A stretch of DNA of 64,000 nt, taken from contig PIZR01000003.1 in NCBI GenBank assembly GCA_002835675.1, positions 248,001 to 312,000 on the forward strand. The letters are read 5' to 3'. Below are positions 34,065-44,592 of this stretch, piece after piece. The DNA is from Bacillus sp. BA3. Its GTDB lineage: Bacteria > Bacillota > Bacilli > Bacillales > DSM-1321. A program made the translations under genes and the position numbers. Every line of letters begins with the position of its first letter. Position 1 is the first letter of the stretch. The notes under the pieces were generated by a model. It was given only the letters and a program-made list of their open reading frames with translations, searched no databases and was not told the origin of the DNA.

Positions 34065-36578
34065 TTAACCTAAATTGCCATGGCAATTCTTATATTTTTT
34101 ACCGCTGCCGCATGGGCATAACGCGTTTCGGCCAACGTCTTCCTTTTTACGGGCAGGGGCTTTTTTCACTTTTCCCCCGTCTTCTTCCTTCGGATTGACC
34201 GCTTGTCCTTTTATGACTTCCTTACGTTCCAAATTGTTTCGGATTTCGGCCTTCATGATGTATTTTGCGACTTCATCTTCCATTGAAGCAATCATCGCTT
34301 CAAACATTGCGAAACCTTCTGATTGATATTCACGAAGCGGATCAATCTGGCCATAAGCACGAAGGTGGATCCCTTGGCGCAATTGCTCCATCGCATCAAT
34401 ATGGTCCATCCACTTGCTATCGACGGCACGAAGAACGATTACTTTTTCGAATTCACGCATTTGTTCTTCAGATAGCTCTTCTTCTTTTTGGTCATAGCTT
34501 TCTTTCACTTTTGCTAAAATGAACTCAACCAATTCCGATTCATTTTTCCCTTCCAAATCAGCTACAGTGATTGAACCTTCATTGAATAGGTTACCATTCA
34601 GGTAATCGACAAGGCCTTGTAAATTCCAGCCTTCCTCATCACCCATTGGTGCAAACGCGACAACATTTCGCTGGATGGATGCCGTGATCATCGTTTCGAC
34701 GATTTCACGTAAGTTGTCACTTTCCATGACATCGAAACGCTGTTTATAGATAATTTCCCGTTGTTGACGGAGAACATCATCATACTGCAGTAATTGCTTA
34801 CGTGAATCGAAGTTATTGCCTTCGACCCGTTTCTGTGCGGATTCAACGGCCCTTGTCACCATTTTGCTTTGAATTGGCTGGGAATCATCCATACCAAGGC
34901 GCGCCATCATGTTTTTCATGTTATCCGAACCGAAGCGGCGCATCAATTCATCTTCCATTGATAAATAGAATTGAGTGACCCCTGGATCTCCCTGACGGCC
35001 GGACCGACCACGCAGCTGGTTATCTATACGCCTGCTTTCATGACGTTCCGTACCGATTACAGCAAGGCCCCCAAGCTCCTTGACACCTTCTCCAAGCTTG
35101 ATATCCGTACCGCGCCCTGCCATGTTCGTAGCGATCGTAACTGAGCCTTGATTACCTGCATTCGCAATGATTTCCGCTTCACGCTCATGGTTCTTGGCAT
35201 TCAAAACATCGTGAGGGATTCCTTTTTTGGATAAATAGGCAGATATGACTTCAGATGTTTCGATGGCAACCGTACCGACAAGCACAGGCTGACCCTTTGT
35301 ATAGCGTTCGGCGATGTCTTCCACAACAGCCTTGAATTTGCCATCAGTTGTCGCGTATATAAGATCTGCCCTGTCGTCCCTGATGATATTCCTGTTTGTC
35401 GGGATCGCAATTACATTCATATTATAAATATTGCGGAATTCTTCTTCTTCCGTTTTGGCTGTTCCGGTCATACCTGAAAGCTTTTCATACATCCTGAAAT
35501 AGTTCTGGAATGTAATCGTCGCAAGAGTCATGCTTTCATTTTGAATCTCAAGTCCTTCTTTCGCTTCGATCGCCTGGTGGAGACCTTCACTGTAACGGCG
35601 GCCTTTCATCAAACGGCCAGTGAATTGGTCAACGATGACTATCTCGCCTTCCTGGACAACATAATCCACATCCAAATGCATGGAAACATGTGCCTTTAAC
35701 GCCTGATTGATATGATGATTCAAAGTAACGTGATTAATATCGAATAAATTATCGATATTAAACGCTTTTTCAGCTCGATTCATCCCATCTTCCGTCAGCT
35801 GAACACCTTTTGTCTTTTCATCATATGTGTAGTCGGTTTCTTTTTTCAAGGTTTTTACAAACGCATTGGCCTGGATATACAGCTGAGCCGATTTTTGTGC
35901 AGAGCCGGAAATGATCAATGGCGTTCTTGCCTCATCGATCAAAATCGAATCGACCTCATCAATGACAGCGAAGTGCAGCGGGCGCTGTACCATTTGTTCT
36001 TTATATAACACCATATTGTCACGAAGATAATCAAAACCTAACTCATTATTCGTACTGTACGTAATGTCAGCATTGTACGCCGCCTGTTTTTCTTCTTTAG
36101 AATGACTGTTCAAATTCAACCCGACGGTCAAACCAAGGAAATCATACAATACACCCATCTCGGTGGCATCACGGTGTGCCAAGTATTCATTGACAGTAAC
36201 GACATGTACACCTTTACCGGTAAGCGCGTTTAAATAAACCGGCATGGTGGATGTTAAGGTTTTACCTTCCCCTGTTTTCATCTCGGAGATATTTCCATCA
36301 TGAAGTGATGCCCCACCCATGATTTGAACACGATAAGGATATAAGCCCAGAGCACGCTTTGCCCCTTCACGTGCAACCGCAAAAGCCTCAACAAGCAAAT
36401 CATCAACGGTTTCCCCATTTTGATAACGCTCTTTAAATTCACCCGTTTTGGCACGCAACTGTTCATCCGATAACCCCGCCGTCTCATCAGCCAGCGCTTC
36501 GACCTGATCGGCGATTTTTTCTAAACGTTTGATTTCTCGCTTATTCGGATCAAAAACTTTATTTAATATATTAAGCAT
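34065..36578 (-). CDS. secA: Protein translocase motor SecA
   Basis: The ATPase that drives preproteins through SecYEG. The 837-residue protein has nucleotide-binding domain 1 (Walker [27 protein letters not shown]), the preprotein cross-linking domain, NBD2 ([36 protein letters not shown]) and a C-terminal zinc-binding tail [13 protein letters not shown] that contacts SecB/ribosome-type partners or lipids. Length and domain order are normal for Bacillus. Confidence 0.98.
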
Positions 36579-37602: not shown

Positions 37603-37643
37603 ATTAGCCACCTCTTTTACCTCCTAAAATACTCCTTGTATTT

Positions 37644-37728
37644 CAGGCAGACCAGCCATCCTAGTCTCGAGGACCTTAGACCTGTGCCTTTGCGCCCTCA
37701 TCTTTCAATAAGTTTGCCTTTGTCGTGG
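37644..37728 (-). promoter_or_regulatory. Cyclic-di-GMP-I (GEMM) riboswitch before sinI-like gene
   Basis: Reading the minus strand, the conserved core appears in order: AGGCAAAC, a short stem closed by a GAAA tetraloop (TTATT GAAA GATGA), GGGCGCAAAGGC, CAGGTCTAAGG, then after a variable stem GGATGGCTGGTCTGCCT. These are the class I c-di-GMP aptamer elements (compare GGCAAACC, GAAA, GGACGCAAAGCC, GGCCTAAACC, GGTAGCGGGGTTACC of the Vibrio Vc2 aptamer from memory). The AGGC and GCCT ends close P1. The expression platform is the ~40 nt before the GTG, holding a weak AAATAC/GTATTT hairpin and AGGAGG; whether ligand turns expression on or off cannot be told. Confidence 0.88.
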
Positions 37729-42036: not shown

Positions 42037-42876
42037 ATTAATCTTACTGAAATCCAGAAAAATATATTATATGCCAGCATTATAAGTGACGGTGAAATCA
42101 CGAAAATTTATAAAAATAGCAGGAGAAAGAACAACAGCTACCGGGAGCACTACGGCACATCTCAGGGAGATTATCGAAAATGGAAAATTTCCTTTTTTGA
42201 TGGATTATTATATATCACTCCGGCAAGCCAATGTGTCCGTTCCGCTTCTTTAGAATTATTCACCAATTTATTCCCACACTTTTACAGTGATGATGGAACT
42301 AAACATCTCCCCTTCACATTATTGAAACATTGCATTTTACCACATTTCCTAACTATTCTATACATGGATGATGGCTCTTTAAGCATCTCATACAGGGTAA
42401 ATCATAATAAAAAAATTATTTACCTCACACCGCATATTTACCTTTACCTTCAATGTTATCCTAAAGACGAATTAGAGAAACTAAAGGAACATATATTTAC
42501 CACATATCATTTATCCTTAAAGCTGAGCTCTCGTAAAGATGGATATGGATATATTCTAAAAACTACTTCTGTTAAAGAAACTTTTCGTTTCCTCGAACTA
42601 ATCGAACCTGTAGCAAAAACTTGTTCTTCCATGTTATATAAAACCTCTGGGGAATTCCGAAATCAAAAAGAAATACTCAGGTGGAAATCTAAGTATCCTG
42701 ATTACACGATTCTTACCAGCAGTTCAGATCGCTCTAAACCCTATTCTCCAGATGAAATTAAATTACTAAGACAACTTAAAGAAAATGGTTATACAACAAA
42801 TGAAATTGCAAAGATGCTAAAAAGAAGTTATTGGTCCGTTACTTATAAATGGCAAGAAATAAAAAAACTAAACTAA
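42037..42876 (+). CDS. Freestanding LAGLIDADG homing endonuclease
   Basis: A 279-residue endonuclease of the LAGLIDADG DNA endonuclease type. Two dodecapeptide motifs are visible: ILYASIISDGEI near residues 10-21 and FLTILYMDDGSL near 104-115, each with the catalytic acid. A C-terminal helix-turn-helix (YSPDEIKLLRQLKENGYTTNEI) should add DNA contacts. The frame is open well upstream of the first ATG/TTG (42322); that short version would lose motif 1. The only good ribosome site, AAGGAGG at 42022-42028, points to ATT at 42037. It converges on hag, ending 117 bases from its stop, next to the intron. Confidence 0.87.
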   Translation: MNLTEIQKNILYASIISDGEITKIYKNSRRKNNSYREHYGTSQGDYRKWKISFFDGLLYITPASQCVRSASLELFTNLFPHFYSDDGTKHLPFTLLKHCILPHFLTILYMDDGSLSISYRVNHNKKIIYLTPHIYLYLQCYPKDELEKLKEHIFTTYHLSLKLSSRKDGYGYILKTTSVKETFRFLELIEPVAKTCSSMLYKTSGEFRNQKEILRWKSKYPDYTILTSSSDRSKPYSPDEIKLLRQLKENGYTTNEIAKMLKRSYWSVTYKWQEIKKLN

Positions 42877-42943: not shown

Positions 42944-42976
42944 AAAAAAAGAGACTCTAGTAAAACTAGAGTCTCT
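42944..42976 (-). terminator. hag terminator
   Basis: GAGACTCTAG and CTAGAGTCTC arms followed by seven T's on the minus strand, just beyond the true (3' exon) hag stop. Its position confirms that the 3' exon is part of the hag transcript. Confidence 0.9.
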
Positions 42977-42992
42977 TTCAGGTAATCTAAAA

Positions 42993-44592
42993 TTAACGAA
43001 GAAGTTGTAAAACTCCTTGTGGTTGTTGGTTCGCTTGCTTTGCGACTATGTCTTTCGATCATAGAACAGACTATATCTTCACCCTTATCTTATAAGGGGC
43101 TGGGCACTTCGAATGGCTTTTGCCACCCTACGGATTTCATTGCCATAGCTTTCACCTTAGACTGTATATCCTAGTCGTTGAACCTTCTCCAGAGTTTCCT
43201 CAAAGGAGCTTGGCTGCTGATTATCCATTATGTCATCTCCATCATTTTCAGACCATCACGCTTACCGTTTCCAGTTACGTTGTGGTTGATGCAGCTTTAG
43301 GAAGTTCCAGCAATTCACCCAGTCATAATTTTATCCATTACTGGATAAAACGCCCTTCAAATTTACCTCAGAAGTTGTAAAACTCCTTGAGGTGCGGAAT
43401 TTGCTTGAGCTAGCATTGCTTGAGATGCTTGCGCCAAGATAGAGTTTTTAGTTTGCTCCATCATAGTCTTAGCCATATCTGTATCACGAACACGTGATTC
43501 AGCAGCAGTCAGGTTTTCAGAAGAAGTTCCTAAGTTGTTGATCGTATGCTCTAATCGGTTTTGGTTAGCACCTAGTTTAGAACGTTCAGCTGATACAGTG
43601 TCAATTGCAGATTGAATAACTGTGATTGCTGCAGATGCATTTTTAGCATTAGAAACATCCAGACCGGATTCAACGCCTTTAGAATCTGTACCATTGCTTA
43701 CATTTGTAGTTGCAGTGAATCCATCACCAATACCAGTTAATCCTAGATTACTAGCACGCATGTCACCGATTTCAAGTGTCAGACTTTGGTTTTCATTTGC
43801 ACCGATTTGGAATTGAAGGCCTGCGCCAGCATCAGTACCCGTAGAAGAAGAACTACTTATTTTTAAATCAGCTAAAGCAGTACCAGCAGATGCACCAACT
43901 ATTTCAACGGAACCTTTAGCGCCAGCAGTTAAGGTATCAAGCTTTAAAGCACCATCACCATCAAGGGACGCATACTCTTCACCAGTTGTTCCAAGTGCAG
44001 TATTTGCTGCAGTATTAATAGCAGTCACTATATCAGCAGCTGCATCACCATCTCCGATTGTAACATCGACATCTTTCCCATCGATTTTAAGACTTAATGT
44101 ACCGCCAGTTGTAACAGCACCTGCCGCCCCTGAACCAGTCAAGCTAGCAGTAGAAAGTTTTGTATCAGAATCCTTAGAACCATTCAATAGTTTCTGAGTA
44201 TTGAATTCAGTAGTATTACCGATACGGTTGATTTCAGATGTTAATGAATCCATTTCCTTTTGTATTTCTCCACGGTCACTAGTTGTATTAGTATCCGTTG
44301 ATGCTTGTGTAGCAAGTTCACGCATACGTTGAAGAATGTCAGTCGTTTCGTTTAATGCACCTTCAGCAGTTTGGATCAATGAGATGGCATCCTGTGAGTT
44401 ACGGGAAGCTTGGTCCAATCCGCGGATTTGTCCACGCATTTTTTCAGAGATTGCTAGACCGGCTGCGTCATCGCCTGCACGGTTGATGCGCATGCCCGAT
44501 GCTAGTTTCTCCATTGATTTTGATTGTGCATTCGTTGCACTTGATAATTGACGGTGCGTGTTTAGAGCTGAGATATTGTGATTGATAATCAT
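42993..44592 (-). CDS. hag: Flagellin, split by a group I intron
   Basis: Filament subunit. Exon 1 is 44592-43408 (395 codons) and exon 2 is 43037-42993 (14 codons plus stop); the spliced protein is 409 residues. The N-terminal D0/D1 domain (MIINHNISALNTHRQLSSAT, GMRINRAGDDAAGLAISEKMRG) and C-terminal D1/D0 (DTDMAKTMMEQTKNSILAQ) are standard, with an Ala/Thr/Gly-rich variable middle. Splicing gives AMLA-QANQQPQGVLQLLR, the family ending. Without splicing, translation continues into the intron, reads QANSAPQGVLQLLR and stops at 43363, also 409 residues. Expression is from a sigma-D promoter; AAGGAGG precedes the ATG. Confidence 0.93.
43000..43019. repeat. 20-bp direct repeat, copy in hag exon 2
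   Basis: Identical to 43370-43389, exactly one intron length (370) apart. It encodes the QGVLQLL part of the flagellin end. Confidence 0.9.
43363..43407 (-). other. Intron 5' segment encoding a substitute flagellin C-terminus
   Basis: The first 45 nt of the intron continue the hag frame and encode QANSAPQGVLQLLR and a TAA stop. The 3' exon encodes QANQQPQGVLQLLR and a stop. Lengths are equal; only two residues differ. Confidence 0.9.
43370..43389. repeat. 20-bp direct repeat, copy inside the hag intron
   Basis: Identical to 43000-43019. Recombination between the copies would delete precisely 370 bp and leave a full-length, intron-free hag. Confidence 0.9.

Follow-up and report, generated by a model that had tools for sequence, protein, structure and literature searches.

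A group I intron near the end of a Bacillus flagellin gene carries its own copy of the flagellin C-terminus

Group I introns are uncommon in bacterial protein-coding genes, and the explanation that has been offered is that translation disturbs their folding (PMC3984707). For those that do occur in bacteria, it matters that the upstream exon is translated and that a stop codon comes early (PMC3073962, PMC3984707), an in-frame stop past the 5' splice site keeping ribosomes out of the group I core (PMC3073962). Among the closest described systems are the flagellin introns that have been reported from thermophilic Bacillus, Geobacillus stearothermophilus included (PMC3984707, PMC4853749), as a preliminary description of the present DNA had noted for Geobacillus, and Hayakawa and Ishizuka (2009, 2012) are cited for temperature-dependent splicing of a flagellin intron that promotes motility (PMC4853749). 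Like the intron described here, they belong to group I, lie in a flagellin gene and come from Bacillus-type bacteria. The subgroup given for them is IA2 (PMC4853749). Compared by way of the descriptions in the citing papers, they differ in that no duplicated flagellin ending is mentioned there (PMC3984707, PMC4853749); since splicing is said to promote motility, their unspliced form may well be non-functional.

Here we describe an intron in the hag gene of Bacillus sp. BA3 that begins with a replacement for the flagellin sequence it interrupts, and compare it with its relatives. From this comparison we consider it probable that it is a mobile group I intron, whose insertion site is fixed 14 codons short of the hag end and which is rendered nearly harmless by the replacement ending that it carries.

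The hag intron, its boundaries and its relatives

The range studied, positions 42993-44592 of the window (the whole 64,000-nucleotide stretch of DNA that was analysed), takes in the entire hag gene. In the open reading frame listing hag is a 409-amino-acid flagellin at 43363-44592 on the minus strand, with Pfam Flagellin_N and Flagellin_C matches. As any open-frame gene caller would, this listing takes the intron-borne ending as the end of hag and misses the intron and the second exon. Two flagellin endings are present, QANSAPQGVLQLLR (43407-43363) and QANQQPQGVLQLLR (43037-42993), each followed by a stop codon, and the spacing between them is exactly 370 nt, as the preliminary description had stated. 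On our reading exon 1 (43408..44592, minus strand; assigned from the same listing and Pfam matches) comprises 395 codons and ends with GCT, and the intron (43038..43407, minus) runs for 370 nt from CAA to the terminal guanine, omega G, having been identified with RF00028 and bounded by comparison. The intron opens with 14 codons and TAA (43363..43407, minus), termed here the mimic, which also forms most of an extended P1 hairpin. Exon 2 (42993..43037, minus) supplies the native ending and its own TAA. An inverted repeat followed by a T run, recognised by eye as terminator-like, lies at 42944..42978 on the minus strand, between hag and a neighbouring LAGLIDADG gene.

The group I core, which had previously been read by inspection, was recovered with the RF00028 covariance model, which matches 43381-43046 on the minus strand with 82.1 bits (gathering score 50; E 2.5e-19) and over model positions 1-253 of 253. 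The model places the start of P1 at 43381, later than the 5' splice site proposed here. A P2 hairpin is found at 43329..43350 (minus) both in the Rfam alignment and by RNAfold. About 60 nt are inserted in the alignment between P7 and P3, where P7.1 and P7.2 would sit; the presence of these two helices at that position is the defining feature of subgroup IA2.

With the boundaries drawn as GCT/CAA and AAAG/CAA (the slash marking the splice site), spliced and unspliced RNA alike are predicted to encode 409 amino acids. Among distinct introns at this position, designated site B, the codon before the intron is GCT in 89/89 and the final intron base is G in 89/89; at intronless hag ends the same codon is GCT in 35/63 (Fisher p 2.2e-13, relatedness being ignored). 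Together with covariation of exon and guide between two insertion sites, described below, these counts bear out the boundaries first proposed in the preliminary description, and its claim of a complete flagellin from both mRNAs is backed by comparison across many genera. That description would have been contradicted by intronless relatives ending in NSAPQ; the six congeners inspected (L026-L031) all end in NQQPQ. The intron, its boundaries and the two complete predicted reading frames are therefore supported by the comparison.

Other 5' splice sites were considered and rejected. A site after ATGCT would give a longer guide pairing, but it has no omega G that keeps the frame, and most relatives read ATGTT. 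Sites after ACTT or CTTCT, close to where the Rfam alignment begins, have no G-ended partner that restores flagellin. An IStron was likewise rejected, the 370-nt intron being without a transposase; its sole open reading frame at a threshold of 60 aa is one of 86 aa on the opposite strand. No second close flagellin copy was found in the genome, whose sole other match lies about 2 kb off and is weak (24% identity, E 2.5e-6).

Elsewhere in the window, a c-di-GMP-I riboswitch was found at 37643-37728 on the minus strand (RF01051, 69.6 bits). No same-strand open reading frame of at least 80 aa is listed between it and a secA-like frame at 34065-36578.

The site B pattern was matched in 67 of 397 genomes, and the reversed control pattern gave zero matches among the rows of the pattern search. 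Where named, the close loci belong to Peribacillus and Bacillus. In genome G044, sequence was drawn from three of the four matching places, all but C34:78-131. From 93 non-identical rows, 89 distinct introns were retained after removal of L085 (contig end) and L113 (5' end unparsed), of L061, which is without the guide motif, and after one further merge of identical sequences. L021, L085, L126, L148 and L164 had been dropped for want of the strict core motif; on inspection the mimic is present in L126, L164 and L061, and L085, L148 and a second copy in L021 look degraded. L003 and L210 have the mimic and fall outside the strict 3' pattern. The intronless set of 66 was reduced to 63 by removal of three misfiled introns, and L046, whose contig ends soon after hag, is perhaps a fourth; the sets of 75 and 74 used below for diversity and folding still contain the misfiled introns. 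Of 190 phage records, none covers 80% of the query, and among the 15 matches listed there are only partial matches to the core.

A complete 14-codon mimic and stop, copying the flagellin ending, was found in 87 of the 89 introns. The exceptions are L022, in which the mimic is frameshifted, and L141, in which it is truncated to QFEQIAA and a stop. Since these two introns are without a complete mimic, it is evidently not essential for persistence.

A sister family of introns occupies site A, 23 codons upstream of site B. There the exon ends with GAT and the guide reads GTCG, each in 37/37, and none of the 37 introns has a mimic; a stop follows after 5-6 codons instead, so that flagellin made from unspliced RNA would be without its last 37 residues and end in 5-6 others. 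The site A introns are, as judged from these frames, the ordinary solution, with an early stop and no mimic. Patterns for both sites were matched in 28/397 genomes. L011, L012, L015, L017, L042, L043 and L046 have a site A intron and a site B intron with mimic in hag, L046 being cut by the contig end after the mimic, and L053, L086 and L094 have the site A intron alone, with a hag end free of the site B intron.

Evolution of the two endings

Mimic and exon 2 are each 14 codons long in 87/87 introns and agree in their last residue in 84/87. Changes in both were counted on a tree of the intron core drawn without support values. In mimic codons 9-13 (VLQLL) there were 109 synonymous changes, TTA/CTN codon swaps among them, and 0 amino-acid changes, against a neutral expectation that about 73% of changes would alter the residue; residue changes do occur in mimic codons 2-8 and 14. 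In exon 2 codons 9-13 the same tree gave 79 synonymous and 0 amino-acid changes, and VLQLL is retained in 87/87. Both endings appear to be under selection as protein.

These counts bear on whether the mimic is kept only as a P1 hairpin and ribosome-blocking stop, with the spliced form alone mattering as protein. The mimic does fold and pair, and group I introns are described as usually having an in-frame stop soon past the 5' splice site (PMC3073962, PMC3984707). However, neither a hairpin nor a stop accounts for 109 synonymous changes to none that alter a residue, TTA/CTN swaps included, nor for a length of exactly 14 codons in 87/89 introns and a last residue that agrees with exon 2, and the site A introns manage with 5-6 codons. 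We regard this explanation as very unlikely.

Gene conversion as the source of the likeness between mimic and exon 2 was also rejected. In codons 8-13 the likeness of a mimic to its own exon 2 was 0.745, against 0.740 when partners were swapped (87 introns), and 0.731 against 0.733 among 31 representatives; since the two endings are no more alike within than between genes, conversion is no explanation for these codons. Over codons 1-7 any excess of own over swapped pairs is slight at most (0.671 against 0.662; 31 representatives).

The two endings do differ systematically. Serine stands at codon 2 in 65/87 mimics and in 1/87 of exons 2, and glutamine at codon 5 in 0/87 and 78/87, respectively; at intronless ends serine at codon 2 is rare as well (2/63). 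Such differences, and the reported temperature dependence of flagellin intron splicing (PMC4853749), would fit a functionally distinct flagellin isoform whose production is regulated through splicing, temperature or translation rate being possible controls, and which behaves differently with FliS, with FliW or in the filament. But codon 5 is glutamine in only 32/63 intronless ends, being M, K, A, L, T or V in the others, so that most variants there seem to be tolerated, and the P1 extension uses codons 2-5, which alone could explain the differences. The comparison yielded nothing in favour of different behaviour of the two forms towards FliS or FliW, and a distinct isoform is on this evidence decidedly unlikely.

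On the simplest interpretation, each of the two mRNAs is produced and translated. The coexistence of the two products is suggested because both endings are selected; their ratio and its regulation lie outside that argument.

RNA pairing at the two splice sites

Across the family, codons 2-5 of the mimic pair with the bases just past its stop, and this stop stands 7-12 nt ahead of the guide. In the window the 5' strand of this P1 extension is CAAAUU (43398..43403, minus; mimic codons 2-4), which pairs with 43363-43358, and the 3' strand is AAUUUG (43358..43363, minus), which starts with the final base of the mimic's stop codon; both were placed with RNAfold and with a duplex test in which each mimic is set against its own or a swapped spacer. 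Taken by itself, L001 has in that test a best duplex other than the 43398-43403/43363-43358 pairing. Mean duplex energy among 31 representatives, less than 88% identical in the core, was -6.29 with own and -4.11 with swapped spacers, and 0 of 100000 permutations did as well. In the full set a mimic's own spacer outdoes, on average, no more than 63% of the foreign ones, and some introns (L001, L010, L041, L127) have a weak extension, the window's intron being among the weak pairers.

The mimic also folds more stably by itself: its mean is -8.60 kcal/mol, whereas exon 2 reaches -4.59 (31 sequences each) and the 74 intronless ends -4.01. Its folding energy lies below that of 300/300 synonymous-codon shuffles, a result that partly reflects relatedness, since the same advantage over shuffled versions is seen for exon 2 and for intronless ends; the contrast in folding level between the mimic and the other two is the stronger point. 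RNAalifold gave a near-zero consensus energy for the mimic alone (-0.04), presumably because the register of the hairpin varies among members.

The internal guide sequence is GGGCG (43351..43355, minus), in which G43354, G43353 and C43352 stand opposite exon bases U43408, C43409 and G43410. RNAfold of the window segment gives the long mimic hairpin and then P2, and pairs the exon GCU beyond P2, away from the guide, in a fragment that is without the remaining core. In both families the P1 core consists of three pairs only (GCU at site B), with a mismatch at -4. It can be seen that exon and guide covary between the sites: an exon end GCU goes with guide GGC (GGCG) at site B, and GAU with GUC (GTCG) at site A, the second P1 pair being C-G in the one and A-U in the other. 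Comparison shows a dual use for the mimic, as predicted protein ending and as predicted P1 stem.

A second pairing spans the 3' splice site. At 43031..43045 (minus), intron UCGC (43045-43042) and exon 2 GCGA (43034-43031) would enclose the loop AAAG/CAA. The intron triplet and exon 2 codon 2 are CGC/GCG in 46 of 87 introns, GGC/GCC in 37, GGC/GCU in 2, and GGC/UCC and UGC/GCA in 1 each, and the third base of the exon codon is able to pair with the intron in 87/87. The site A intron has the same hairpin (UCGC-ACG/AUG-GCGA). The predicted pairing of exon 2 with the intron, with its covariation, is new here, and to our knowledge a hairpin between exon and intron at the 3' splice site is not a familiar element of group I introns.

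Per-base diversity in exon 2 is 0.073 for codons 1-7 and 0.208 for codons 8-14, compared with 0.247 and 0.350 for hag ends without an intron and with 0.253 and 0.245 for the mimic. The low value in codons 1-7 fits an exon 2 start that would travel with the intron.

The state of exon 2 also bears on the converse explanation, that the unspliced form is the only one that counts, in which case the mimic would be the functional end of hag and the remainder, ribozyme and exon 2, a decaying 3' relic. Degraded copies do exist (L214 in addition to L148, L085 and the second copy in L021), and in fungal mitochondria an inserted ending is described as able to replace a native one that is gone from the mRNA (PMC3630166). 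Against this, exon 2 has kept VLQLL throughout with 79 synonymous and no amino-acid changes, the third base of its second codon is able to pair with the intron in every case, the intron core and omega G are retained, and codons 8-13 hold no signal of gene conversion. The probability that exon 2 is a relic is slight.

The adjoining LAGLIDADG gene and comparison with known systems

A putative LAGLIDADG endonuclease gene lies at 42037..42876 on the plus strand, convergent with hag and 116 bp past its stop in exon 2. It is intact and encodes 279 aa (42037-42873; PF03161, E 5.5e-15), with a Myb/HTH-like C-terminal match below the cut-off. The apparent start is ATT, after AAGGAGG; because this start is unusual, calling of ATG/GTG/TTG frames gave only the C-terminal 184 residues.

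Relatives of this gene were found in 23/397 genomes, every one adjoining the end of a hag gene or what remains of such an end, the only sequence away from hag being fragments on a short contig of G038. The 23 comprise 21 with a site B intron, one with a degraded intron (G401) and one without (G357). In a separate set, 11/101 relatives have the gene, each within about 0.8 kb, by coordinates, of an intron-bearing hag. One relative without internal stops (L196) lies beside L022, the intron with the frameshifted mimic.

It might be that the LAGLIDADG gene is an unrelated neighbour, as it occurs in only 19/67 of the genomes with the intron pattern, and broken copies lie beside an intronless hag in G357 and, in G401, next to a degraded intron with exon 2; the intact intron of G401 lies 6 kb from there. 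However, 19/67 stands against 4/330 in the other genomes (Fisher p 1e-12), and three of those four (G023, G243, G417) have the intron on inspection; the confinement to hag is nearly complete, and several copies contain stop codons, as expected of a homing gene. A chance association is unlikely. The locus shares with collaborative homing a free-standing, here putative, homing endonuclease gene beside an intron-bearing gene, and linkage suggests that this gene most likely promotes the spread of the intron, together with the start of exon 2, into intronless hag alleles.

We propose the following sequence of events. Before splicing, ribosomes would run past the 5' splice site, translate the mimic and terminate 7-12 nt short of the guide, yielding a complete 409-aa flagellin ending NSAPQGVLQLLR. 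With its stop so near the guide, a terminating ribosome would cover the guide and melt P1, and splicing would need a ribosome-free interval. In ribosome-free RNA the bases of the mimic would fold as the extended P1 hairpin and bring the exon GCU to the guide; after excision of the intron, exon 2 would yield a complete 409-aa flagellin ending NQQPQGVLQLLR. The convergent LAGLIDADG gene would promote spread of the intron with the exon 2 start. The mimic may have diverged to escape the intron's own endonuclease, because exon 1 and the mimic together recreate much of the empty site. Temperature-dependent splicing that promotes motility, as cited for the thermophilic introns (PMC4853749), counts against this proposal, since a mimic would blunt such control.

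We think it rather more probable than otherwise that the mimic is a captured host ending turned to dual use, coding under ribosomes and serving as P1 substrate helix when free of them. Translation and splicing would then compete for the same bases, and the fate of the intron would be separated from host fitness, because either outcome gives a full-length protein. Flagellin is a heavily expressed gene, and carrying the missing end would be a way round the conflict of translation with folding, in that failure to splice becomes harmless. Each outcome leaves its own C-terminal peptide, which makes the locus a natural system for gauging the contest of ribosome and ribozyme, and L022 and L141, with their broken and shortened mimics, useful natural controls. 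Beyond the preliminary description, the comparison adds a widespread intron family, a mimic that doubles as P1 stem, the pairing of exon 2 with the intron and the hag-linked LAGLIDADG gene.

Among the matches listed from a search of the open-access literature, we found no report of a mimic-like duplicated ending in a bacterial intron. In group I introns with an early stop, those of site A included, the stop also lies close to the 5' splice site; at site B it ends a full protein. Other systems share single features with this locus. In the F-CphI/psbA system of cyanophage S-PM2, an example of collaborative homing, a free-standing endonuclease gene is likewise described beside an intron-bearing gene (PMC6083498); F-CphI is given there as an Endo VII-type enzyme, whereas the gene described here is of the LAGLIDADG type, lies convergent on a bacterial chromosome and is, by its linkage, a candidate homing gene. 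The self-splicing group II intron of Clostridium tetani resembles the present case in that spliced and unspliced RNA are both coding, as we propose here (PMC3919590). It is described there as giving five surface-layer protein isoforms, the unspliced form included, through four alternative splicing reactions, whereas the hag intron is of group I and would give a near-identical protein both ways. The nearest parallel to the replacement itself is in the mitochondrial mobile open reading frames of Allomyces and Glomus (atp6, atp9, cox2, nad3), where an endonuclease-linked element likewise supplies a substitute ending; the native atp6 and cox2 endings are reported as not found in the mRNA, and the account describes no splicing of the insert (PMC3630166). 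In hag, by contrast, splicing by the ribozyme could bring back the native ending, and conservation extends to both endings; selection on exon 2 as protein argues for its expression, unlike the displaced native endings of the fungal genes.
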